Source: Hoplostethus atlanticus
Lineage: Eukaryota > Chordata > Actinopteri > Trachichthyiformes > Trachichthyidae
Direction of reading: 5' to 3'
Assembly (NCBI GenBank): GCA_034670405.1
Contig: JAXDDX010000018.1
Coordinates: 2,914,501 to 2,978,500 of the forward strand
DNA length: 64,000 bases
The notes under the pieces were generated by a model. The model saw nothing but the letters and a program-made list of their open reading frames with translations. It did no database searches and was not told the DNA's origin. A program made the position numbers and the translations under genes. Positions 2,142-59,950 of this stretch are shown piece after piece; the stretch's first letter is position 1; every line of letters begins with the position of its first letter.

Positions 2142-4329
2142 CTGTTTGCTGTTATACTTTGGATGGCTGGTCTTGTAGCTATAATCTGAGTATTGGTCTG
2201 AGCCGGTAGAGTTGTCATCTCCTCCTGTTCCTACAAAGGTGTTGGTGGCAGGAAGGTCCTGGACAGCCTGATGCTTCTGAGAGGCTGAGGGGGATTGGGC
2301 CTGCAGCTGGATGGATGGTAAGGGGGAGTTGGAGCGATAGTGCCTGCCTATATCAGGGCTTCCTGGAGAATATGTAAGGGGCAGGTGAATTCTGGGGCTA
2401 TCACTGACTCCATCAAGGTTGAACTTGAGACTCTTTTGAAGGCTGACTTCTTCCTCTTCTCCAAGGGGTTTTGGAGACTTTTGGGGTTTTCCTTTCCTTC
2501 CTCTTTTGCCTTTTCCATTCTTTGGTGCCTGTTTCGGGGCATATAGGTCCTTTGATTCCTTCTTGCCAGCCTGGTAACCACTCTTAGTCTCTCTCTGGAT
2601 GCGGTGTCGAATAAATACCACCACCAAGATCAACATGATAACGCCTGCCACACCGGCAAGGCTGCCATACAAAATGTTACTGCGCTGAGCTGCAAGACCA
2701 CTGTCAGGGGTCACCAGCAATGTCCCTGTCCAGCGGTGTGTAAAGACTGTGTCCAACTAGCGCCTCCACCAGACTGACATTTGAAATGGTTTCATTGACA
2801 TAGATGTGGACCAAGCCAGTGGCATGACGTGCAGGCTTGCCCCTGTCACTCACCCGCACCACCAAGCGATGTAGTCCACCATGTTTTCTGGTCATTTCCT
2901 TGGCTAGGGTGATCTCTCCATTGGAGGGGGAGATGCGGAATAATTGATAAGGATTTCCACCAGCAATACTGAAGACCAGCTCCGCATTAGGCCCACTGTC
3001 CAGGTCTTCAGCTTCTACTACCTCCACATGGCTATCTGGGGAAGCTAGAGGGGACAAGCGCCTGAAGGAGGAATTTGAAGGCTTGGTGACCACAGGATCA
3101 TTGTCATTTTCATCCAGGACATTGATGGTAACACCTACATATGAAGACCTAGGGGGTTCTCCTCCATCCACCGCTTTCAGACGGAAAGTGTAGCTGCTCT
3201 CCTTCTCTCTGTCAAATGAAATGCTGGAGAGAATGGTGCCTGTTCCATTTTGAACCACAAACTTCCCTCCATCAGGATCAACGGAGAGGTGAACATGAGC
3301 ATTCTCACCCTTATCCACATCCAAGACGGTCACCATGCCAACAGGACTGAGGGGGGGCATGTTCTCCAAGACCGAAAAGCTATAGCCACTCAGCATGAAC
3401 TTGGGGTCATTGTCGTTGCGATCAAGGACTTTTATCACAACAGTTGCTGTTCCTTTATGAACGGGTGACCCTTTATCTGCTGCAGTGACACGGAACTCAT
3501 AGCGCTCTTTATGCTCTCGATCGAGCGGGCTTCGGGCTCTTACTTCTCCTGTATTTGGGTCAATCTCAAATAGGCTCTTGATGGATGAATCTGCCACAAT
3601 GCTATAGATGAGTTCTGCGTTAGTGCCACTGTCAGCGTCTGAGGCCGTCACATCCACAACCCTTTCCCCTGGCTGGTTCTCTTCGGCAAAATCTACCTCA
3701 AACAAGGTTGGGGAGAATATTGGAGAGTTGTCATTCACATCAGTCACCTGCACCTTCAAGGAGTTTGTACTAGAGAGTGCTGGGTTGCCAGAATCTACAG
3801 CCACAATCTCTACTCGGTATTCCCTCACCCTTTCATAATCAAGAGGAGTGGTGGTCTGTAAGAAATACTTCCTCTTGTTGTCACTGGATGAGTCGCTGGC
3901 AGGGCGCAGCTGGAAGGGCACATCACCTGCTACCACACAAGTGACCACGGCATTCTCTCCTTCATCCCTGTCAGATACCTGCACCAAAGCTACGGCTGTT
4001 CCCACTGGCATGTCCTCTGAAATGTTAGCCACTCCTTCACTGTGAATCACAAGACCAATCCCACGGATCTCCACAGCTGGAGCATTATCATTTTGGTCAG
4101 TCACCTCAATGGTTACAAATGTCTTAGAGCTTTTAGATTGTGGACCTTTATCCCTTGCTACCACATAGAAGGACAAGCTGCTGATTTCCTCCCTGTCCAG
4201 TGATCCTTTGACATAGATAATGCCGGTGGACCGATCAATTCGTAGGAGTTTTGGCACTGGGTCCAATGCTTGGAGAAGGGTGTACTCAATTTCTCCATTA
4301 AGGCCCATGTCAGAGTCATTTGCTTTGAC
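2142..4329 (-). CDS. pcdh1: Protocadherin-1, second large coding exon (EC3-EC7, membrane segment, proximal tail), with a frameshift
   Basis: Seen: acceptor TTTTCATTGTAG| then GTC AAA GCA, continuing EC3 in phase 0 from the previous exon. EC-ending motifs, numbered from the first Met: DQNDN 343-347, DVNDN 462-466, DRNDN 568-572, DENDN 671-675; EC7 ends near HIYVNETISN. The frame meets TGA at 2706..2704, after residue 806. The next frame continues the family sequence: a short linker, a hydrophobic membrane segment (about 22 residues from ILYGSLAGVAG), a basic stop-transfer, SGYQAGKKESKDLYAPK, and the tail block ending PKYNSKQ at a CAG|GTAATGG donor. So one extra base in the C4 run at 2710..2707 breaks an otherwise intact exon. 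Known: the conserved tail blocks are delta-1 protocadherin features; the PP1-binding RRVTF-type motif lies in later exons, not seen here. An assembly error or a rare allele is more likely than a real pseudogene, because everything else is intact. Confidence 0.92.
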
Positions 4330-5481
4330 CTACAATGAAAAGGAATGTCTATGGTTAAAATTTTGACTTAGGGGTAACAATTTAGGGTTAGAAAGGGGAG
4401 TAATTAAAGGGAAACTATGTAGGATTTTCTCTACACATCATTGATTAATGAAAGAATAGCTGAATGGACTGTGATAATGACATCATCATCACGTGAGCAG
4501 CTTTTTAAAGGCATATCTCATTATTGCACTTCCTCACTGCTTTTGATGGTTAACTTACTGGTATGTTTTTCCCCTTTTATTCTGAGGAAATGAGCCAGAG
4601 AACTGGCAAATTGTATCAAAACATACAGCAGATCATTTGGGTTGCTGTTCATTACATAACGGTATTGCAGTTTCACGGCGAGAGAAAATCCTACACCTAC
4701 CAACATATAGGTAATAACTAATAAATTAGACAAATCATTATTAATGATAATTACTTAACATTATATAAATGTATAATATTGTATTATACAGTATTATACA
4801 TCTTCATTGTGTATCTCTAACTCTACCAGACAATATCTGCCAGTATCAAGGCATAAGAACAACAGCAACAAGGAGTTGTATGCATTTATGCAACTGCATA
4901 TGTATAATATGCTAAATACTGTAATACTTGCAGTGTTACTACAACATGCAAATAAGAGTAAATCAATTCTGTATAACACATTTTAGGAATTTGAATAGAA
5001 TAAAGAGATGCGGCTCAATGACTAATTATGGTCTTTTTGTATTTTTGTACTTTTTGTATATGATTTTGTATCAGAGATGAGATCTGAAACATTCAAATTT
5101 GAAAGGCTATTTTTTTTTTAATTGAAAGCAGTCTCCGAAATTCAAAGATACAAATGTTCTAACTATGAAAATATGTTTTATTGGCTATGGTTTTACAGAT
5201 TAAGTCTATGTATTTGAGTAAGAAAGACATATGTGCAGACTAATTGTTCAAAAACACTTTCATAGATGGGCTGTACTGTTGTGTGTCAGTTGTTATTGAC
5301 ACACAATTAGTTATTTAAAGTATAAAGTTATTTAATTCAAAACAATGCATTGAGCAGCACAACATATTTTGATTGCAATTTGACTTTTCATTCCAGTATT
5401 GCAAGTTCATTCACAAAAAGCTCTTTAAACCCAAATGTCAAGCATATCATACATTAAAGAGTCTTTACCAAACCATCTCAC
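4330..5481 (-). other. pcdh1 intron between the two coding exons
   Basis: About 1.15 kb, phase 0, with GTGAGA donor and TTTTCATTGTAG acceptor on the minus strand. AT-rich; I see no coding remnants or recognisable mobile element inside. Confidence 0.9.
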
Positions 5482-6276: not shown

Positions 6277-8794
6277 TAGGTCATCAGAAGATCTGCCTGT
6301 GAAATGATAAACAAATGGTTTTAAAATGTTGCTTCCTTAAGAAGATCATCAAGATTTAGCTGCAACAAGCTTGATATACATTATTTGAGACTGTGTAATT
6401 AGGTCATCTTCTTCCTGAAAAATAACATCTTTGTAGGCAATAATTCATTATCGGATGTTACATAGGGAGATCACAGAGCTAATATCAACACATAATACAG
6501 AGTGATACATTTAGTCAGCAGAAAAACCTTTGCAGAAAAATCTTTCTGCATTGTATTGTTGTACCTATTATAACTCTAAAACTCTCTCTCTAAAACTCTC
6601 TAAATGTTATATGTTTGTCAATAAATTGTAACCAAACCTAAAGCAGGCCTGGAAGCACAGTATAATAATTAGCAAAGCAAATTACTGTAGCAAGAGCTAA
6701 ACCTCCGGTTTTTCCAACAACAAAGGGAAAAGAGCCATTTTCCAAACATGAAATCCTAACAGTAGCTCAGCATGGTTTCTTTTCTGTCACATAGCTTTAA
6801 TGAATGTCTCTTTTGTGCAAATTTCATTTTGTAAAAATGATATTTAGAGAGCTCACGCAGAAAACAAACTCAAGCACCAGTGTGCATTGTTTCAGCTGCA
6901 TAATCAAATGAAGGACTAATATGAAATATTTCAGAACACCAATGATCAGAACATCATTAAATGGCTGAGAAATGCAACTCAAAAATAATATAGAATAAGT
7001 ATAATACATACCCTCAAAGATACATTTCTTAACAACAAGCCAAGACATTGTCTAAGGAAAGGACTGAACCTTTTGAATGCCTCTAAGAACCGATACTTGG
7101 GTAAACTAAGTGCCACAGAGGCAGTAAAGCCATTTATCTTCATGTAGATTATGTAACTTGGGCCTAACATTATCAACACATGCAGCTTGCAACAATGCAA
7201 AATGCACATATTTCCATCCCTGCTCCATTGCTATTGGCTAATTCAAACACTGCAATCATCATGTTTGATTTCTAACCTGCTATGTCAACTCATTAATTAC
7301 TAACTATTATTTTAGTATCTTCTTTGATCCGTATTACCCCAAGCTACAGAATTCAGACTTTTTATGCTGCAAATGATTTTAGACTTTATAATTATTTCCT
7401 GTGCATGTGAACAATTCTACTGGTAATTGAAATGGAAGCAGACATTGAGGTTAAATATCAAGGTCCAGTGCTCTGGAAAACCTATTGGTGGCAATGTTTT
7501 GCCTGTTTAGATGGCTCTTTATTAGTTTGTGTGTGTGTACATGTTATGAGGTGGTGTCAGTTTATGTGTGTGCTCTCAGTGCACATAAGGACCCTTTTGC
7601 AGTGGTGTTGAGTGTGTGAGAAAAAAGGCAGAAATAAAAAGACAGTCTATAAGTATACATGAATATGGGCAGATAGTGCATTATTCTAAACTTGAATCAA
7701 TATTTTCTGCACCTTCTAGCATGAAACAATGTTCCAAAGAAGAGCTAAGCAAATATGTATTAAGCTAGACAGCAAAACACAAATATACAGAAATCCAATG
7801 AGAAATCCAATTCCTCTGAATATGTTAAAATTGGAAGTGCAGGTTATTGATGCACTAATTGCTTAGTTATTGATGTGTCCCTTTTTACATTTGCAGGGGA
7901 GCCTCTAGTCGATGTGGCTTGAATAGTGAGTCTGTGTGTGTTTGTGTGTAGGAACGAGGAAGACAGGCCGGGGCAAAAGTATAATTAGAGAATGCAATGA
8001 AGAAACACATTTCTGAAACTAACCACTGACAGTTAACATAATGTGGGTTAAGGGAAGATCACCGTTTCTCATATCATCATGAAGTATGGGTGATAGAAAT
8101 GTTTCAAATTGCTGTCCAGAAGTAGGCCAGACATGAACTGATGTACTGATTTGTTAAATAAAAATATTTTAATAAATATTTTAGATAAATGAAGATTTAA
8201 ATAATATTTTTCCTCAGTATTTAAATAACACTTCAATTTTAAACTGATCAAAGGAAATTATTCCATTAACATTTGAAGAGTTTAATTAATTAAAATGAGA
8301 TATCCACCATTTGGAAAACATAACAACTACTCTTACAAATTATACCAGGAATTGAGTTGTCTTGATGCTTACAAAATGGTTATGTTTTTGAGGATAGAAT
8401 AATCTGGTGTTGAAATATTACATTTCTTACATTTTTGTTTAGCTAAAACTGCCCCTACCATTACGGCCCCTTCCAGAATGAATAGGATTGCTTTGGTAAT
8501 GGCATGATTGTTATGGTTGATGACACTCACGACTTAATGTCTTCCAGTTGGCCCTATGCCTCTCTTCCAGATGGCACTGTGCCTGGCAGCCACAGTGAAT
8601 TGGTGTTCTTTTTCTTTGTTTACACTTACATCAAATTCATGTTACTTGTGAAATATGGGTTTTGCCATCAGTCATCTGATGAATATTATGGACACTGTGG
8701 CTTTAGGTCTTTATCCCAAATTCTGAGCTCTCTCACTGCCATTTATAATCAAAAATTTGACTGCAGTGAAATTCTTTTGCCCAGTCCAAATCAC

Positions 8795-50814: not shown

Positions 50815-51908
50815 CAGGTAATACTCATATTACAAAACAGACCTACGGTGTGGTTAAGCAGTGTCCATTAACTGAGCTTGACTACTTACTTTGATGTCAC
50901 CAGGGCATTTCCCCCAGACCAATGTATGATTTCTTAGAGGGCATTGTACCAATTGTTGTCTGTAAAGTTGTCACTGCGCTTCACTTGCTGAAAATTGTAA
51001 TAGATAGAGGTAACATCCCGCAGATATTATCACCAAGTATACTGAAGCACAAAAAGTTGACTGGATCAGCGGCACAAAACTGGTGTTTATTCAGGATCTT
51101 ACCATTCCTTATTGGACACTACATTCCAGAAGGTGAGATACACTGGAACGTTTATCTCAAGTGCAGAGAGATTGGAGATATCATCCTCTCTCCCTCCATC
51201 AGAAAAAGCATCATTCCTGTCCTCAGCTTCCAGATTGGTGAATTCCTCTGTGTTCCCAGAGACCTTCACACCTAAATTACACTATCTCATTCACTATCCA
51301 TGTTTGACTTTAGAGTTTGGCCCACTGAAACCACTGTGGTGCATGCGATTTGAGGGGAAACATCAGTACTTCAAGAGGTTATCCCACAACACCTGTAACT
51401 TCAAGAATCTTTGTTACACCCTGTCCAAGAGACACCAGTTGCGGCAATGTTGGGAGTTAACTCTGGATATCCTTCGCCAGTGCTCATACACTGAAGGTGA
51501 ACGCCAAGTCCCATTCCGGTCTCTTCCCCTTGATATTCAGGAAGGTATTGCTGTCAGTGGGGTTGAAGACTTCCCAAATGAGGAGAAACTAGGAGTTGTT
51601 AGCTCTCTCTTGACTAATACCATCAAATACAAAGTAGATGACACCATCATAATTGATGTGGTAGAAGGGGACATTCCCATCTTTATGAAAAAAGCTAAAA
51701 TCATCCAGTTCAGGGCTCTCTGGATGATCTTTGGAAAGCTACTGACACCCAAGAAGTTCAACAGCCACTATCATGCCTTTTCTTTGGAGGACCAGAAGAA
51801 GTGGATTGTGGTTTAGCCAGAGGAGGAGAAAGACTACCATGCTTTGGACACTTATGTTCATGATGACAATATGTTCCTTACACTTCATCATAGTGTGCAT
51901 GTCCAGAG
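50815..51908 (+). pseudogene. CACTA-type transposase-like region, broken
   Basis: Pieces in changing frames: YGVVKQCPLTELDY (50.85 kb), FPPD then MYDFLEGIVPIVVCKVV (50.90-50.97 kb), HWNVYLKCREIGDIILSPSI (51.14 kb), then TPKLHYLIHYPCLTLEFGPL and LWCMRFEGKHQYFKRLS (51.26-51.37 kb) and CNFKNLCYTLSKRHQLRQCW. The HDLLEG-like motif and the 'H-LIHYP...GPL...MRFE-KH-YFK...NFKN' block resemble the C-terminal half of tnp2-type transposases (compare plant DUF4218). There are frame breaks near 50.87, 50.91 and 51.24 kb and an in-frame TAG at 51814; the frame then continues to a CAGAG|GTAAAA donor at 51908. The N-terminal half with the catalytic acids is not present. Dead copy. Confidence 0.65.
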
Positions 51909-52036
51909 GTAAAAGCCCTATGTATTCCTGCAATTGTCTTAATGACGTTTTATTTTTGTCCTTCTGAAATAAGTAACCAACCTCCTGTTTAGGATTACAA
52001 TTTCCTGACAATTTAATGTAATTCTTACCTCAACAG

Positions 52037-53264
52037 AACAGCAGATTGATGGGGAAACTCTGCTGGGATTAACAGAGAGGATGTTGGAATTTTTTTTCCC
52101 TGTGATGAAACACCAGGTCATGTTTTTGAGAGAGTTGGAGAAGGTAATTGTAATTGTAATTGTTGAACGAGCCAATAGTAAAACCAAAAATCTAGATTCC
52201 ATGAATATGGTGAGTGGTGCTATGGAAAGTCTCTGTAAAAGATTTCCTATTCATTTCTTTATATAGTCAAGGAGCCCAGGAGTCATGGCCAGCATTATAT
52301 AGCCTGCCTCTACTGCCCCAAGAGTTGCAGGAAGCTCTGCAAAGAAAAGATCCAAAAAGAAGGACAAGTCCCATTTACGATCACTGTTGATCCAAGTGTT
52401 GTTCGACAACATAACCAAATACACATGGTACTTATAGTCAGTGTTATCCCCTTGATTTATGCTCGACTAGTTTGATGTCAGGAAAGTACATTTAGATCAC
52501 TTTTGCTATTGCTTATTTTAAGTAACTTAAATTGCAGTAACTCCTGAAAAGAAAGGACTACATCTTGAAAGCAGGAAAGTTTTAACTGAGGAGATGATCT
52601 TTCAGGTATCCAAACCATAAAAAATATGCTGATGTCCTGGGATGTCTGATCACCAGGTTTCCATTTCTGAAATACGACAGCTCCTCTGGCTATGTATGGA
52701 AAGCATTCTTCCACAGTTGTATTTTTATAATTTTTTTTCTTTGTGTGAGCATTATAATTTATGTCTATATCTACAGGAAACCTTACTGGAGTGCCTGAGA
52801 AATAAGTTCAAGAAAGAGAGGTCTCCTTTAGTGAACTTACAATCAGTCCGGGAGATGAAAAAAAAAGTTTGCCGCCAAGTTGGAGACAGAGAAGTGGGGA
52901 CCACGTGCCTTTGGAGGACCTAGCTGGACAAGAGCTGCCTGTCTAATTTCAGAGAGCAAAAAGGCGAAGAATTGAAGATGCAATCCAAATATCCTCTGGG
53001 GATCTTGATGCAACACAAGAGGTTTGCAATTTTTTTGATGATTGAAATAATGTAGTATGAAAATTAGCTTGAGAACATTCACATTATCATTGTTCACACC
53101 CTGAATACCAATACTGTGTTTCTTGTTATATTTCTTCCCAGATTGTGTTGGAGCTAGAAGTTGTTGGGGAGGATGAATTAAGTTTCAGGGAGCACGTAAG
53201 TGCTATCAATAATGAGCTGCACCGGCGACAGCCAGACTTCTTCACTATACACTATTGTGCATAG
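52037..53264 (+). pseudogene. SAM-domain exon and following exons of the same transposon gene
   Basis: Exon 52037..52143 (AACAG| acceptor, GAAG|GTAATT donor) reads QQIDGETLLGLTERMLEFFF, then PVMKHQVMFLRELEK: the C-terminal half of a SAM domain (pattern IDG-xLL-LTE-ml-...-P-k-R-x-L-x-x-i). Exon 52777..53021 begins ETLLECLRNKFKKERSPLVN, familiar from fish SAMD3-like proteins, but meets a stop at 52921; other frames continue to AAGAG|GTTTGC. Exon 53142..53264 reads IVLELEVVGEDELSFREHVS and ends at TAG. SAM domains are protein-interaction modules. Exon joins are inferred from splice sites; the phases do not all agree, so the copy is damaged. Confidence 0.55.
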
Positions 53265-53508
53265 TAATGTTTTTATATGGTGCAACTACTTTTTGATGAT
53301 CAATAGTCAATTTGAAACCACCTCTCTTTTCTTTTTCTTCAATCTACAATTGATGGTAGTGGCAAAGGGCTTACTTTATGTTATTGAAGTTTTATATATT
53401 ATAGGTTATTTGTTATTTTATTTAAATTAGTATTAGTAGTTAAATTAACTTCATATCATGGTAATTCTGCAGAATTATTAAAAAATATGTGGCCAACCAA
53501 GGCAATAA

Positions 53509-53673
53509 GGCAATAAAAGGTTTTGGATATTGATTGAACCTTTAAAAGGTTCTATATAGAACCATTCTGTTTAGCAACAAAGAACCCCAAGGGTTCTTTT
53601 AAATGAACCTTCTGAAATGGTTCTATATAGAACCATTTGAGGGTTCAATCAATATCCAAAACCTTTTATTGCC
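53509..53673. repeat. Inverted repeat with about 56-bp arms
   Basis: Left arm 53509..53564 (GGCAATAAAAGG... to the palindrome) and right arm 53618..53673 are near-perfect reverse complements, separated by about 53 bp. Copy 2 of the transposon lacks the right arm, going straight from the palindrome to ACTTATTCTTT. So either copy 1 gained an inverted duplication of its subterminal region or copy 2 lost it by recombination between palindromes. Confidence 0.9.
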
Positions 53674-54169
53674 TTTATGTACCAAGCTATAGAACCCTTA
53701 AAGGTTCTATATAGAACCACTTATTCTTTGTGTGTATGACATTCACAATTCTTCACAAAGCTAGCCCTGATACAGGACCCTTTTGGAGTCTTTCATCGTA
53801 TGGATTTTTTACTTTTTCCAAAGGGTCCAGCTCCATTGAACTTTTCCTGTGCGAAAGTCGGCGAGTCCTATAACAGCGAGGGTGACTGGGTGGAAAACCA
53901 CCAGGAAGACCATGCAGCCTGGTCAGACTGTTGGATTGTTCACCAGGAATGGCAAGCTGCCCGCCCCGTTTGCTAGCTGTATGTGGCTACAGTTTCTCCT
54001 TGATGGGTTTTTTCTGTTCTTTCAGTTCTACACAATGGCTGTAATTTTCAAGTAATTTTCTCTATCAAGTTCAAGCTGATAGAGGACGTTTTTTGCTTTT
54101 GCATTATTATTAAGTTTGCCAATGTTTGGCCATGCACATCTCAGGTTGTCTTTAATAATTGCCTGATTG

Positions 54170-54650
54170 TCAAGATATTTACCCATCTGCAGTTTCATTG
54201 GACTCATGCATTAGGCTCTGTAGTGATAGCTCAGAGGAGCCAGGTAAGAGTCATCCTGCCTGAAGACCAAATTGACTCTTCTGACAGCATGCTTGGAGCT
54301 GCCATTGGCCTGGGGGTAATGTGGACTTGATATGACATGCTTGAAGTCTTACTTTGCAGCAAATGTTGGACTTGGAACTTTTGCAGATAATTTTTGTTTG
54401 TCAGTGGACTCTGCCAAAATCCACATTTAGCATCTAAACTTCAGAAAACAGTTGTGTCTGCTAGTTTTAGAAGTAGGTCAGTCTTTTAAGATCAACACAT
54501 GCACAGATTTTCATTCATAGCTTTGAGCCAGGAACCATGGGGGCACACCATTTGGTATGTTCAGTTACATTTGAAATGAAGCCCATTAAGTGCAATCTCT
54601 TTAACTCTTCCTCTTCCTTAGGAATCAGCGGGACTGGGATGAGTCACTGT
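54170..54650 (-). mobile_element. Ty3/gypsy remnant: start of RT joined to integrase C-terminus
   Basis: Minus strand from 54640: IPKEEEELKRLHLMGFISNV, then TKWCAPMVP and ICACVDLKRL, the N-terminal RT segment (E-x-x-EWCAP-VPV...VDLK-LN). From 54350: FKHVISSPHYPQANGSSKHA, the integrase C-terminal segment (SSP-YPQ-NG-AE-A). RT core, RNase H and the integrase core are missing. A different gypsy lineage from the 34 kb element, judging by the RT sequence. Confidence 0.72.
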
Positions 54651-54968
54651 ATGGCTATACAAAAAAGAAAAGAAAAAAACTTGTGGTGGTTTTTATGTAT
54701 TTATATGTATTGAACACAAAGTCCAATATAGAGCAAAAATCAAGAACAGGACAGGTCGACATTATATTTCATATGATGAGGCAGAGAAAGATAGAGGAAA
54801 TTAGACATATCATTTAGGTAAGTAGTAGTATTGAATTATTGGATTTGGATTTTATTCTAAAATAATAGCATGTCGTTAACATTAACATCAAGATTTAGAA
54901 TGTAATCAAGGTGCTGTGACACATGCTTGTACTGTTGTTGCCTGTCACTCTAAAGTGAAAATGATAGC

Positions 54969-55330
54969 ATGTTAAGATTTAAGAATTATAAACGTCTGGG
55001 TTGTCCGCCAAATCCAATGTGTCCCTACCAACTTTCAAACCAAACCTACACCCTTGTTCACCACAGCCAAACAGCAGCTAGCCAGGCGAGCACTGGCCAA
55101 GAAAAGCAGCAAACGCTAGAACAATCCATACACAGGCAAGAGTGGCTCGCTGGTGATGGCACGAAAGCAAAAAGAATCACGGAGAAAAGAGCAGAATTCA
55201 TTGCGTTAGATGACCAACCACTTTCAGTTGTGGAAAATCAATGATTCACCTCGAGCCACAGTACACCATCCCCAACCCCCCGAAAACGGAGAAGCTATAT
55301 CCTCTAGCAATATGATATGAAGCCCATTTT
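54969..55330 (+). pseudogene. hAT transposase (ZBED-type) N-terminal fragment
   Basis: A 91-codon frame to 55244 ends AEFIALDDQPLSVVENQ, the characteristic segment of hAT transposases between the BED finger and the catalytic core (A-FI-LD-QP-SVVE-x-GF). The upstream TLEQSIHRQ and the Lys-rich linker fit too. After the stop, the +1 frame continues HLEPQYTIPNPPKTEKLYPL, matching LEPRYT-P-R. So there is one frame change near 55.23 kb and then the copy ends. Neither the BED zinc finger nor the catalytic region is intact. Confidence 0.75.
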
Positions 55331-56394
55331 CTATTTTATTACTTTTCATTTGAGTATTGTTATACAATTTTATCATACACGTTTTCTCAAATTATTGTCA
55401 CACCATATATTTCATTCAAATATTCTAAAAATGTCTAATTATTAATTTAATTAATTGTAAGATTATGAAATCTTGTTTGAGAAATAAAATTTGACTAAAA
55501 TTTTGTATTTGTTTTTAATAAATGATGAAACAAGAGTTCTTGGTAGTGGACTCAAGACTTTTAGACCCGACTATAGATGTACAGATTGGTAAGTCAGTGT
55601 ACATTTGTACACGGTGTACGTTTGGCTTCATATTGAATTGACCACCTGTGTGTTTTAATTGTTGCTGACTGAACGCAAGACAGAAACATAATTGGTCGCT
55701 GTGTCATAATTAAGGATAAAGATGGTTGCATTGTAATCTATTACTGATGCTGAACATAGGCTGCTGGTGCTTAGTAGTTACATTTCAGAAGCAGTCGTTT
55801 TGTATGCCACTCTTGTATGTGATTCCTGTGTCATCACTGATGAGAACTTGCTTGATATTGACCGGTGTGTGCGTGCCTGCGCACGTGCGTGCGTGCGTAA
55901 AGTTTACCACAAGTAAAATCTGGGTTTCATAAAGCTGTGCCTACCCTGTTATTGACCTCACCGCACATCACTGCATGGCTGGGCAGGGGAGTCTCGCCAA
56001 TGGCGAGCCTGCAGCTACTGCCCAGACAGCAAACATTGAGTATGCCATGGTTCAGTCCCCATTTCTTAGAGCTGACTGAGACAGTCAGACCTCGTATGGT
56101 CTCTATCAAAAATACTGCAGTGCATAATAATAATAATCAGACTATTTGTATAGCACTTTTGTAAAAACATTGTGCTTTACATACAATAGAATTAGAAGGG
56201 AATTAGAATTAGATAAAAATAATGTAATAAGAGATACAGATACCAACGCAAATACAAACAGAGAGCAATTTACATAAAAGCATGTCCATGAATGTCCAGC
56301 CAAAACAAATAATAAATAATAATAAATAAGACAAAATTCACAATTACAAATAGAAAATAGATCAACATGTTCTATGTTTTTAGAAGTGTTGTAA

Positions 56395-56900
56395 AAGATG
56401 AAACTAAAAGGCGCAGTCACCAGCCCAGACTGTGGAACAGACAGAAGGGCCTTCCCTGAAGATGTCAGGCTGCACGCTGGCTCAGAGGGGGTTAAAAGGT
56501 CAGCAATATACGTGGGGGCTAGACCATGCCGTGCTTTAAAGTAAAATCTTAAAATCAATTCTAAATCTAACTAGTAACCAGTGTAGAGATGCTAAGATTG
56601 GGGAAATATGGTCTCTTTGTTTGGCACCAGTTAAAATCCAAGCTCCTAAGTTAATTTTCTGGCCGTTGGCTTTATATTCAATGACAGGTTATGTAGGCCA
56701 TTTAGAGTAAGATTTCTATTGTTGTTTGGGCCAAGTAAAATATTTCAGATTTGCCTTCATTTAGCTGGAGACAATTTTAGGACATCCAGCATTTGAAGTC
56801 GCTGAAGTAGTTTCTGAGTGTCAAAGCAATTTGGGTCATTATGTCTTAAGGGTATAACTGTGTGTCGTCAGCATAGTAGTGAAAGGAGACATAGGGAGGG
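56395..56900 (-). mobile_element. L2/CR1-group LINE remnant: RT YADD box to C-terminus, deleted
   Basis: Minus strand: HYYADDTQLYP (56.86 kb, RT catalytic box), CLQLNEGKSEIFYL (56.75 kb, the LQLN-xKTE block), then after a deletion TGYQLDLELILRFYFKARHG and LAPTYIADLLTPSEPA (56.58-56.48 kb, the HWLPV-RI-FKILLLTFKA-HGLAP-Y block). Few stops compared with the 26 kb and 29 kb relatives. Confidence 0.75.
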
Positions 56901-56913
56901 AAAGTAATCAAGT

Positions 56914-56926
56914 CGCCCCCTGGTGG
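56914..56926 (-). promoter_or_regulatory. CTCF-like binding motif
   Basis: Minus-strand CCACCAGGGGGCG is an exact match to the CTCF core. It lies just outside the upstream edge of the LINE fragment. Motif match only. Confidence 0.45.
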
Positions 56927-57731
56927 TAGCGTTCCTAACGCTGAGAGAAATGAATGACATTCTCCATAGAGAAAAAATATATCTTGGGCTACATTGCAAA
57001 GTTAACAAAACGGTGTTCATGACATATACACGGGGTTAAACTTTATTGATTCTGGTTATCATAGTTTATTTTCATCATTGCAGATGTAAATAAACTATGA
57101 TCACCAGATGCACTTACATCGTGGCCCAAAACAAGGACCATGAGGAAGAGAAATGAAGGTCGAGATGACAGTGACATTTCCGACAGCCCTGTTGAAAGTA
57201 ACAAAGTGGATAACGTTATCAGTGGACTGAGCACAAGTAGTAGCAGCATGAGTGAAGTCAGCACAACAGCAAATGGCACAAAACAACAAGAAAATATGAT
57301 CCAAGTTATCTCAGTTTTGTATTCACTTGGAGCGGGACGGAGGGAGAGCCGAGGCATGTGTAGGTGTTTTTCATATTGTTGATTTTGCTAGATACCAGTG
57401 AACTGTTTAGACCTGGACCTGCAGGGTCAAAGACATCATCTTGATATATATCAAGATGATATATATCATACCTATATCAGGGGGATGTATTTGTGGTTGT
57501 GTCCACCTGGACTGGTAAGCAAATCGTAGTTGGCAAGGATAAAAGAAAGAAAGACAAAAGCAAGATTGAGCATTGCATCTTGTTGTGGTTGTGTGCAAGA
57601 AAAGCAAAGGTTCTCATAACCAACAGGTGTAATGTTTTGTTTGTATGTTGTGGTTCTCGTGGGGGGAGCTGGTGTACTTGTCTTAGAAGTAGGGTGAGAG
57701 GGGGATGGGACAACACCTGGAGGTTTGCAGC

Positions 57732-57780
57732 TGTGTGTGTGTGTGTGTGTGTGTATGTGTGCATGCACGCGCGTGTGTGT
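57732..57780. repeat. (TG)n microsatellite with CG-containing interruptions
   Basis: Alternating purine-pyrimidine run including GCATGCACGCGCGTGTG; potentially Z-DNA-forming. It ends 12 bp before the left end of the CACTA-like copy 2. Confidence 0.95.
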
Positions 57781-57791
57781 GGCCATCAGCT

Positions 57792-59950
57792 CACTGTCAG
57801 AAAAAAAGGGTTCATTAGGGTTCTATATAAAACATCAAGGTTCTATATAGAACCCTAAGATTCTATATCCTCTACCAAAGAACCATTTGTCTAAAAAGGT
57901 TCTATAAAAATTCAGTAAAACAACAAAGAACCTTTTTTTAAAAAAAGCACAAACCACAAACTTGCGGTCTTTTGACTGTGAACGCGAGCCACTGTCTTCA
58001 CAGAATGTCCACGAGCGAGGACAGTTCAGTGTCAACTGTCAAATATCAACTGGAAAACTGACCGCGATAGTTTCCAACGAACTAAAGGTGGGTACAACGT
58101 CTAACAGACTTTTTTAAATGGAAATTATATTTGTTGAGATATGCTATCTGTTTTCCTCATGGTGTTTTAACTGGCGGCAAGTGTCGATAATGTTACATGT
58201 AACGTTACCTTGGCTTATTGTAAACTAACAGCTAACTAACAGCTGTTAGTTAACCTAACTAACCTAGTTATCAACGTTGTCAGTTAACCTACTGTTAATT
58301 CCCAACTAAGTTAGCTAGTTAGCTTGGTGATAGAACGTGTGGTTACAGATATCTCATTTCTCTAACATATAGCGTTAGTTTTTAGCACTCTATTCAGGGG
58401 GTTATGATTTTAATTTCCAATTAATTTGGTTTATATACAACTACACTTGTATTTTACTTATTTATAAGTATACTTTGTTTTTATCACAGTTTACCAAAAT
58501 GTATTATCATGCTTAGCTTTAGTCTAATTTTGGTTCACTTGAAATAACCTTGGTAACCACAATTTTTTAATGTTGTACTTATTGTTTGTGTTTGTTGCAG
58601 ATGCATCATGAAATAAGGTTGCGTTTTGGCCAGGACTTGGAGCTAAATCTTCAAGATGCTCTCAATGTGATGACACCCAACATCATAAGGGTGGCTCGTA
58701 GTGGGAGTGAGAGGGGCCTCCTGTCAAGCCTGCTGGGAACTGAGGCTAACAAAGATGGTATGTTACATCTTATCATACATCATACACTTGCACTCTCACA
58801 CACACACAATTGTATTCATAAAACTACATGGTTTTATGCAGAGATCATTTATTTTTTCTGAAATTTCAGACCTGCAAAGGAGCGCAGCAATCCTGATTCT
58901 GCCTGTCCTATTCAAGGAGAGCTCCAAGTTCCTTTACTGTTTAGATGAGGTATATGTTGAATCTTCACACTGTCATTGACATTTTGTTGTATTGTCAATT
59001 ACCTATAGCTTGAATTCTATCAGGAGGTTCCTTAGATATGTTTCTTTTCCATAGGAACCAACAAGCTCATTCCCAACCATCATCTTCTATGATGCAGGGA
59101 ATCCCCTCCTTGCTTTGAAAGCATCCATAAAGATGGATGGAGTTGCCATCACAAGTGGAGAAATGGATGTGCCACAGGCTCTGCAGTGTCTGCTTGAGGT
59201 GTATTTCCTGTTTCGTATGGAGTACCCAGATGAAACACACTGTCATTTATAGAACATTATTTTTTCAAACTAGGAAATGGTAAGAAAAGAGTGTCTATTC
59301 CGGTGCTCAAAATGTACAATCATCTTTCACAGTGAATGATGGAATTGATGTAAATAGTAATTTTCAAGAAAGTGTTTGCCAAGATTAAAAAACTTTAGCC
59401 TACTGTTCTTTTGTTTTTGCTGGTTGATTTTAATCTGTCACTCTATTCACTAACATTTATTGGCAATTTCAAATGTTGAGGATTGCCCAGTGATATTTAA
59501 AATCTTAACTGAAATTTAAATTGTATTTTTATTTTATATGTGGTGCTGATATACTGTATTTTAATAACTGTGTGCATGGAATGTTTTGTTCACTGTAATA
59601 TTTTATATTGTGTAATGTAGCCTACTATTTGTGTATAGTAATGTTTTAGGTGTAACTACTTTTTGATGATCAATACAGTCAATTTGAAACCACCTCTCTT
59701 CTCTTTTTCTTCAATCTACAATAGGTTGGTAGTGGCAAAGGGCTTACTGTATGTTATTGAAGTTTTAAATATTATAGGTTATTGGTTATTTTATTTAAAT
59801 TAGTAGTAGTAGTTAAATTAACTTCATATCAGGTAATTCTGTAGAATTATTAAAAATATGTGGCTAACCAAGGCAATAAGGCAATAAAAGGTTTGGGATA
59901 TTGATTGAACCTTTAAAAGGTTCTATATAGAACCACTTATTCTTTATACT
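57792..59950 (+). mobile_element. CACTA-like DNA transposon, internally deleted copy (copy 2)
   Basis: Left end CACTGTCAGAAAAAAAGG, then repeated GGTTCTATATA motifs (perfect palindrome at 57839) over about 130 bp. A possible untranslated first exon ends at ACTAAAG|GTGGGT (58087). Three coding exons follow, then an AT-rich 3' region whose last 310 bp (59632..59945) match copy 1, ending with the palindrome at 59919 and ACTTATTCTTT. The exact right end is uncertain by about 15 bp. It carries no transposase, so it would depend on an autonomous relative. Confidence 0.65.
58601..59334 (+). pseudogene. SAMD3-like C-terminal domain carried by the transposon, three exons
   Basis: Exon 58601..58757 (GTTGCAG| to GATG|GTATGT) reads MHHEIRLRFGQDLELNLQDA, then NVMTPNIIRVARS. 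Exon 58870..58949 (TTTCAG| to GATGAG|GTATAT) reads DLQRSAAILILPVLFKESSK then FLYCLDE. The last exon from 59055 (CATAG|) reads EPTSSFPTIIFYDAGNPLLA and ALQCLLEVYFLFRMEYP. Splice phases agree across all three, so the frame is intact to a TAG at 59250. After it another frame gives GKKRVSIPVLKMYNHLSQ and a stop at 59334, which looks like the true C-terminus lost by a small frameshift. From memory, this layout resembles the C-terminus of fish SAMD3-like proteins; function unknown. The upstream exons supplying the start are missing. Confidence 0.6.

Follow-up and report, generated by a model that had tools for sequence, protein, structure and literature searches.

We analyzed by computation two transposon remnants, copy 1 and copy 2, in a 64,000-nucleotide stretch of the genome of the fish Hoplostethus atlanticus (contig JAXDDX010000018.1, positions 2,914,501 to 2,978,500; here called the window), and we propose that they descend from a CACTA-type (CMC) element that probably carries its transposase within intron 1 of a second gene, one that encodes a SAM domain followed by a tail that we take to be SAMD3-like—a name assigned by no tool—and whose product would be a TnpA-like second protein. 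The sequences contain a single element with its parts in order, a SAM domain split in phase around the transposase, a stop codon of the transposase's own, a target site duplication (TSD), and a pairing of transposase and SAMD3-like core that recurs in divergent families; the splicing itself, the binding of DNA by the accessory protein, and a requirement for it in transposition are inferred.

A long parent element

The original prediction, made from the letters of the window, described copy 1 as a transposase-like region with a SAM exon and an LRNKFKKERSP exon that jumps into a 3' end matching copy 2, and copy 2 as a left terminus with three in-phase SAMD3-like exons and no transposase. Both descriptions were borne out: copy 1 has five SAMD3-like exons, one with LRNKFKKERSP and the last one shortened, and breaks off at about 53244/53253 to continue in a 3' end that shares 93% identity with that of copy 2, which holds its three SAMD3-like exons in phase and without a transposase. 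We searched the 633-Mb genome; only the best-scoring candidates were evaluated (103 of 256 for the SAMD3-like tail query and 141 of 254 for a divergent transposase query), so that all genome counts given here are lower bounds. The right end matched at least 69 pieces from 38 candidates and the left end at least 64 pieces from 35. The longer element that had been anticipated, with both ends and the parts between them, exists: each of the seven long places combines both termini with the transposase and the final SAMD3-like exon. C210 has three of these places, and C67, C5, C238, and C458 have a single one each. The copies at C210 278-286 kb and 317-325 kb have identical flanks and seem to go back to one insertion that was copied by segmental duplication, so the independent insertions number six. 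Five places are about 8.2 to 8.7 kb long, while C238 (∼21 kb) and C458 (∼17.5 kb) contain insertions or an internal duplication. Exon 1 and the transposase region were read in five long copies (L030, L031, L032, L034, and L037, the set without C5 and C458), and the entire tail and full exon order in L037 (C210:616500-624950), which serves as the reference below.

Both window copies are colinear with L037, copy 2 as the blocks 382-890 and 6467-7943, and the terminal 154 bp of copy 2 correspond to C210:616220-616366, just left of the L037 start. That the two copies are internal deletions of one larger element was therefore right as to their common source, an element of about 8.3 kb whose parentage of both we regard as close to certain, and incomplete as to copy 1, in which the left-hand third is missing, a 5' truncation besides its internal deletion. 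We read the two copies as dead or non-autonomous deletion derivatives. Copies of the copy 2 type are an amplified and fairly recent derivative, with 12 of 20 retrieved right-end copies aligning over 2,000 of 2,147 bp unbroken at 95 to 97% identity.

A SAM domain split around the transposase

In L037, an 82-nt exon 1 (1601-1682) follows the acceptor TTTTCATTTCAG, begins with ATGACAGACC, and ends at CAGAG/GTAATGG (the slash marks the exon boundary). The transposase ATG lies three bases past this exon, at 1686, and its C-terminal frame closes with VQR and a TAA stop at 4151-4153; exon 2 starts at 4275, directly after CTCAACAG. The first-half exon of a SAM domain thus stands upstream of the transposase and the second-half exon downstream. 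Joined in phase, the two exons match Pfam SAM_1 over its full profile (1-64 of 64) with an E value of 1.3e-8 and 35.5 bits, above the curated cut-off of 23, and the I variant found in four of six copies gives 5.4e-9. As controls, exon 1 read straight on matched SAM_2 across half the profile (1.6e-5) and SAM_1 at 0.0013, and neither exon 2 alone nor the transposase end followed by exon 2 gave a SAM match in Pfam. Because only the joined exons yield a complete SAM, its two halves flank the transposase, which is itself outside the SAM protein. All five long copies read contain exon 1, one of them with 18 bp deleted, and the transposase stop is preserved in six of six aligned copies. Downstream, the exons of the tail have AG/GT boundaries save for one donor after L037 4985 (AT in L037, L030, and L032; GT in L034 and the window), and the L037 tail stays open for 403 residues up to a stop at 7354-7356; read exon by exon, the SAM and SAMD3-like frames are open apart from one joint, to which we return below. 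Taken together, these features make a strong case by sequence for a SAMD3-like gene whose intron 1 contains the transposase open reading frame. The original prediction had instead imagined one gene joining the transposase to the SAM and SAMD3-like tail, a view that the transposase's own ATG, the preserved stop, and a SAM complete only across the transposase do not support.

Element ends and target site duplications

The left end reads CACTGT[C/T]AGAA and the right end ...TTCTT[A/T]GTGTG. In most long copies the opposite strand of the right end gives CACACTAAGAA, which agrees with the left end, by eye, at 8 of 11 positions; the termini are thus of the CACTA/CACTG type and lie in terminal inverted repeats, albeit imperfect ones. 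Of the 13 copies in which both ends could be read, 11 are flanked by a 2-bp TSD (TA, TG, or CA), where shuffling gives 5.9 (p 0.0024), and none of the 13 has a 3-bp duplication. TSDs in the CACTA/CMC superfamily are 2 or 3 bp long, and the length found here differs from the 3 bp of maize En/Spm. Palindromes, GGTTCTATATAGAACC with up to 3 mismatches, occur six times in the window where 0.36 would be expected; all six fall in copies 1 and 2, and they lie near both ends of the element.

The same pairing in divergent families

Among the matches listed for the SAMD3-like tail query were three loci, on C337, C7, and C14, with 26 to 28% identity, whose surroundings (L038 to L040) hold a related transposase and, after it, a second protein whose core is the same and whose N-terminus differs; in L040 a frameshift interrupts this protein close to its start. 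A third family, that of L041, has a transposase frame open over 823 codons, and its second protein starts from an ATG of its own just past a likely acceptor, so that the coding regions are consecutive, with no nested split; in L040, too, the second protein's own ATG lies downstream of the transposase stop. An alignment of three core sequences from the three families has 23 invariant columns, and their transposases share the stretches FPPD..HD..EG and MRFE.KH, which we take to be catalytic motifs. A divergent core query gave 104 matches merging into at least 91 loci and a divergent transposase query 144 matches merging into at least 124 loci. Scored by the nearest transposase match within 8 kb, a same-strand transposase lies upstream of the core at 48 of 91 core loci, with a median gap of 673 bp, and downstream at none; three core loci have one on the opposite strand. 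The number expected is about 0.0008 per locus. Seen from the transposase, a core lies downstream at 49 of 124 loci. These pairing counts come from the first core query alone; a second one (L041) gave 101 matches at largely the same loci, as judged by eye. The five N-termini examined from the divergent families are mutually alignable, with 30 to 45% identity to the first.

A separate transposase family, related at 33% identity, has open frames of 792 to 943 codons at eight places (C152:678506, C542:21884, C120:744140, C26:4668200, C97:40078, C372:30688, C199:351677, and C854:5247) and no SAMD3-like core match within 8 kb downstream. Its activity may be recent, and its partner may be a different one.

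Proposed mechanism and points against it

In the model we favor, one transcription unit would yield two proteins, and both transcripts would start from a non-coding 5' exon within the left end. One transcript would encode the transposase, with C2H2-like fingers, a DDE-type core, and its own start and stop; in the other, the transposase would be spliced out and SAM exon 1 joined to exon 2 and then to about nine more exons, giving the SAM and SAMD3-like protein. Both SAM and PB1 domains are known for self-association, and the N-terminal module of the accessory protein—SAM here, PB1-like in the divergent families—might cluster the protein, in the manner of TnpA, on the palindromic subterminal repeats, where it could join both element ends and recruit the transposase.

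Several points count against this model. The splicing of the SAM and SAMD3-like gene is itself a prediction, and for one joint in L037, from the exon end at 4551 to the exon start at 4818, we found no in-frame solution (4552-4817). The transposase frame is broken in all five long copies read. Neither this transposase (best matches Plavaka at 0.0063 and DUF4218 at 0.033) nor those of two other families matched Pfam at the curated level, so that the CACTA label rests on the ends, the TSD, and motifs taken to be catalytic; a PDB search with the transposase gave no match either. For the TSD, 27 copies were examined and 14 set aside since one end was off-pattern, and two of the copies, C210a and C210b, are not independent. 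The excess of synonymous over nonsynonymous change that we count in favor of the model has its limits: the short-copy majority (17 to 20 copies per exon) compared with L037 over exons 10 to 12 gives a synonymous divergence (dS) of 0.103 and a nonsynonymous divergence (dN) of 0.036 (Fisher p 0.012), a contrast built on 25 differences with L037 as the sole long-side sequence, and copy 1 compared with the long copies gives dS 0.035 and dN 0.037, as in a dead copy. In the divergent families, the 8 kb around 40 of the 91 core loci contain no transposase match, and with the divergent core query no core is seen downstream of 75 of the 124 transposase loci; six of these 75 belong to the window's own family, whose tail that query misses, and the remaining ones may lack a partner. 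Lastly, PB1 is the best Pfam match of four of the five divergent N-termini at E values of 7e-4 to 0.011 and 16.1 to 20 bits, below the cut-off of 23.6, the fifth matches PSD3 (0.0021, also below cut-off) instead of PB1, and a PDB search with the PB1-like piece returned chance matches only.

Other explanations

The core loci without a nearby transposase match and the one N-terminus in five that is not PB1 by Pfam slightly weaken the two-protein model and slightly strengthen the view that the SAMD3-like gene is a captured host gene, a passenger without a role in transposition. Such capture has a precedent, since the parts of PMC1947982 that we covered report capture of gene fragments by a soybean CACTA element, but the pairing recurs in one order and on one strand with a core just 26 to 28% identical, and dN falls below dS in exons 10 to 12, if on few differences; we consider a passenger unlikely. 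Somewhat harder to sustain is a single fusion protein in which the transposase end (VQR/GTAA) is joined by splicing to SAM exon 2 and from there to the SAMD3-like tail. A possible donor for it, CCAGAG/GTAAAA, overlaps the transposase stop in an exon-1-like context and in the same phase in six of six copies, yet the fusion would hold half a SAM, given that the transposase end with exon 2 has no SAM match, would leave exon 1 without explanation, and has no counterpart in L040 and L041, where the second protein starts anew past a likely acceptor. With such a donor at the stop, and in a suitable phase, a minor fused transposase-SAM isoform may nevertheless be made. It is highly improbable, finally, that two unrelated elements, one bearing the transposase and the other a SAMD3-like repeat, merged by nested insertion, with the shared 3' end as a third repeat: nested and rearranged copies do exist (C144, C458, and C238), but seven places have both ends and the parts in common, and a SAM split in phase around the transposase contradicts such an origin.

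Features of the window and other copies

The features of copies 1 and 2 are collected in Table 1.

Table 1. Features of copies 1 and 2, in window coordinates
Feature	Position	Strand	Remark
Copy 1, 5'-truncated and internally deleted remnant	50833..53734	+	L037 3010-5938 + 7643-8092
Copy 1, transposase C-terminal part, frameshifted, end VQR-TAA	50833..51912	+	91% to L037
Copy 1, SAM second-half exon, 3' part deleted	52037..52143	+	Acceptor CTCAACAG in 6/6 aligned copies
Copy 1, SAMD3-like exon, QGAQESWPALYSLPLLP...	52267..52427	+	
Copy 1, SAMD3-like exon, YPNHKKYADVLGCLITRFPFL...	52606..52693	+	
Copy 1, SAMD3-like exon, ETLLECLRNKFKKERSP...	52777..52934	+	Donor CT in copy 1, GT in L037
Copy 1, SAMD3-like exon	52953..53021	+	
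Copy 1, SAMD3-like exon shortened by deletion	53142..53244	+	Alignment to L037
Copy 1, three right-end subterminal palindromes GGTTCTATATAGAACC	53548..53718	+	At 53548, 53619, 53703
Copy 2, deletion derivative	57792..~59945	+	Left end CACTGTCAG; right end common with copy 1
Copy 2, two left-end subterminal palindromes	57819..57854	+	One with 2 mismatches
Copy 2, end of putative 5' non-coding exon, CTAAAG/GTGGGT	58080..58087	+	Identical letters in L037
Copy 2, internal deletion junction	58407..58408	+	L037 ~890 fused to ~6470
Copy 2, SAMD3-like exon, start MHHEIRLRFGQ	58601..58757	+	
Copy 2, SAMD3-like exon	58870..58949	+	
Copy 2, last SAMD3-like exon	59055..59252	+	Premature end by frameshift relative to L037
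Copy 2, right-end subterminal palindrome	59919..59934	+	

Pfam searches with single open reading frames of the window gave nothing usable. The short derivative (window 58601-59252 and other short copies) keeps the donor of the 5' exon and an exon with an in-frame ATG start, and could encode a truncated tail protein, perhaps a repressor. A 142-codon frame on the minus strand at 56142-56570 resembles what we take to be a non-LTR retrotransposon remnant. Elsewhere in the genome, one long copy contains the transposase-to-tail part twice (C458:45440-50071), and at L016 and C144:350273-354850 short copies are nested and inverted, inserted beside or within one another. L011, whose ends lie 8.4 kb apart, was considered as a full-length copy and rejected; its insert (L011:2340-8553) has long open frames of retrotransposon kind, presumably of the Ty3/gypsy type, which makes it a short copy with an insertion.

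Relation to known systems and significance

According to the parts of PMC2613891 covered here, maize Spm/En is 8.3 kb long, its abundant transcript has 11 tnpA exons, the tnpD transcript includes the large open reading frame of intron 1, TNPA recognizes the subterminal repeats, and TNPA and TNPD are both required. Our element resembles maize En/Spm in its size of about 8.3 kb, CACT ends, subterminal repeats, and deletion derivatives, and, by its predicted exons and predicted splicing, in a second gene of many exons whose intron 1 holds a large transposase reading frame. Unlike maize En/Spm, it would have a second protein with a SAM domain (Pfam) and a tail that we take to be SAMD3-like, a comparison from which TNPA itself was left out. 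As far as sequence goes, the layout is of the same kind as that of maize and the accessory protein of another kind. SmTRC1 of Schistosoma mansoni (PMC1636069), likewise a CACTA-type element from outside the plants, has several spliced transcripts, of which the shorter ones lack the transposase domain; no SAM protein appears in the parts of PMC1636069 covered, according to which its second proteins resemble those of no other element. Our survey of the open-licence literature, at the level of the titles and abstract starts listed and with Repbase outside its scope, found no link of SAM or SAMD3 to CACTA/EnSpm, and the covered part of one paper names samd3 beside a fish sex marker and says nothing more (PMC11258905). 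Viral contigs scanned with the SAMD3-like protein yielded nothing confirmed.

Fish genomes hold many SAMD3-like genes, and vertebrate SAMD3 and the fish SAMD3-like proteins have a SAM domain at the N-terminus ahead of a similarly ordered tail. More tentatively, and with less confidence than in the nested gene itself, we envisage an animal group of CACTA-type elements with a two-part machine, a zinc-finger DDE transposase and a SAMD3-like accessory protein with an exchangeable SAM or PB1-like N-terminus, spliced across the transposase in this family as in plant En/Spm, and vertebrate SAMD3-like genes as possible domesticated copies. Maize En/Spm needs two proteins from one nested unit, and because the SAMD3-like partner adjoins transposases in divergent families as well, it is a testable candidate for the second role in animal relatives. 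The nested layout suggests an origin that is either ancient or convergent, and the SAMD3-like partner could explain both the many SAMD3-like genes of fishes and the former role of vertebrate SAMD3.

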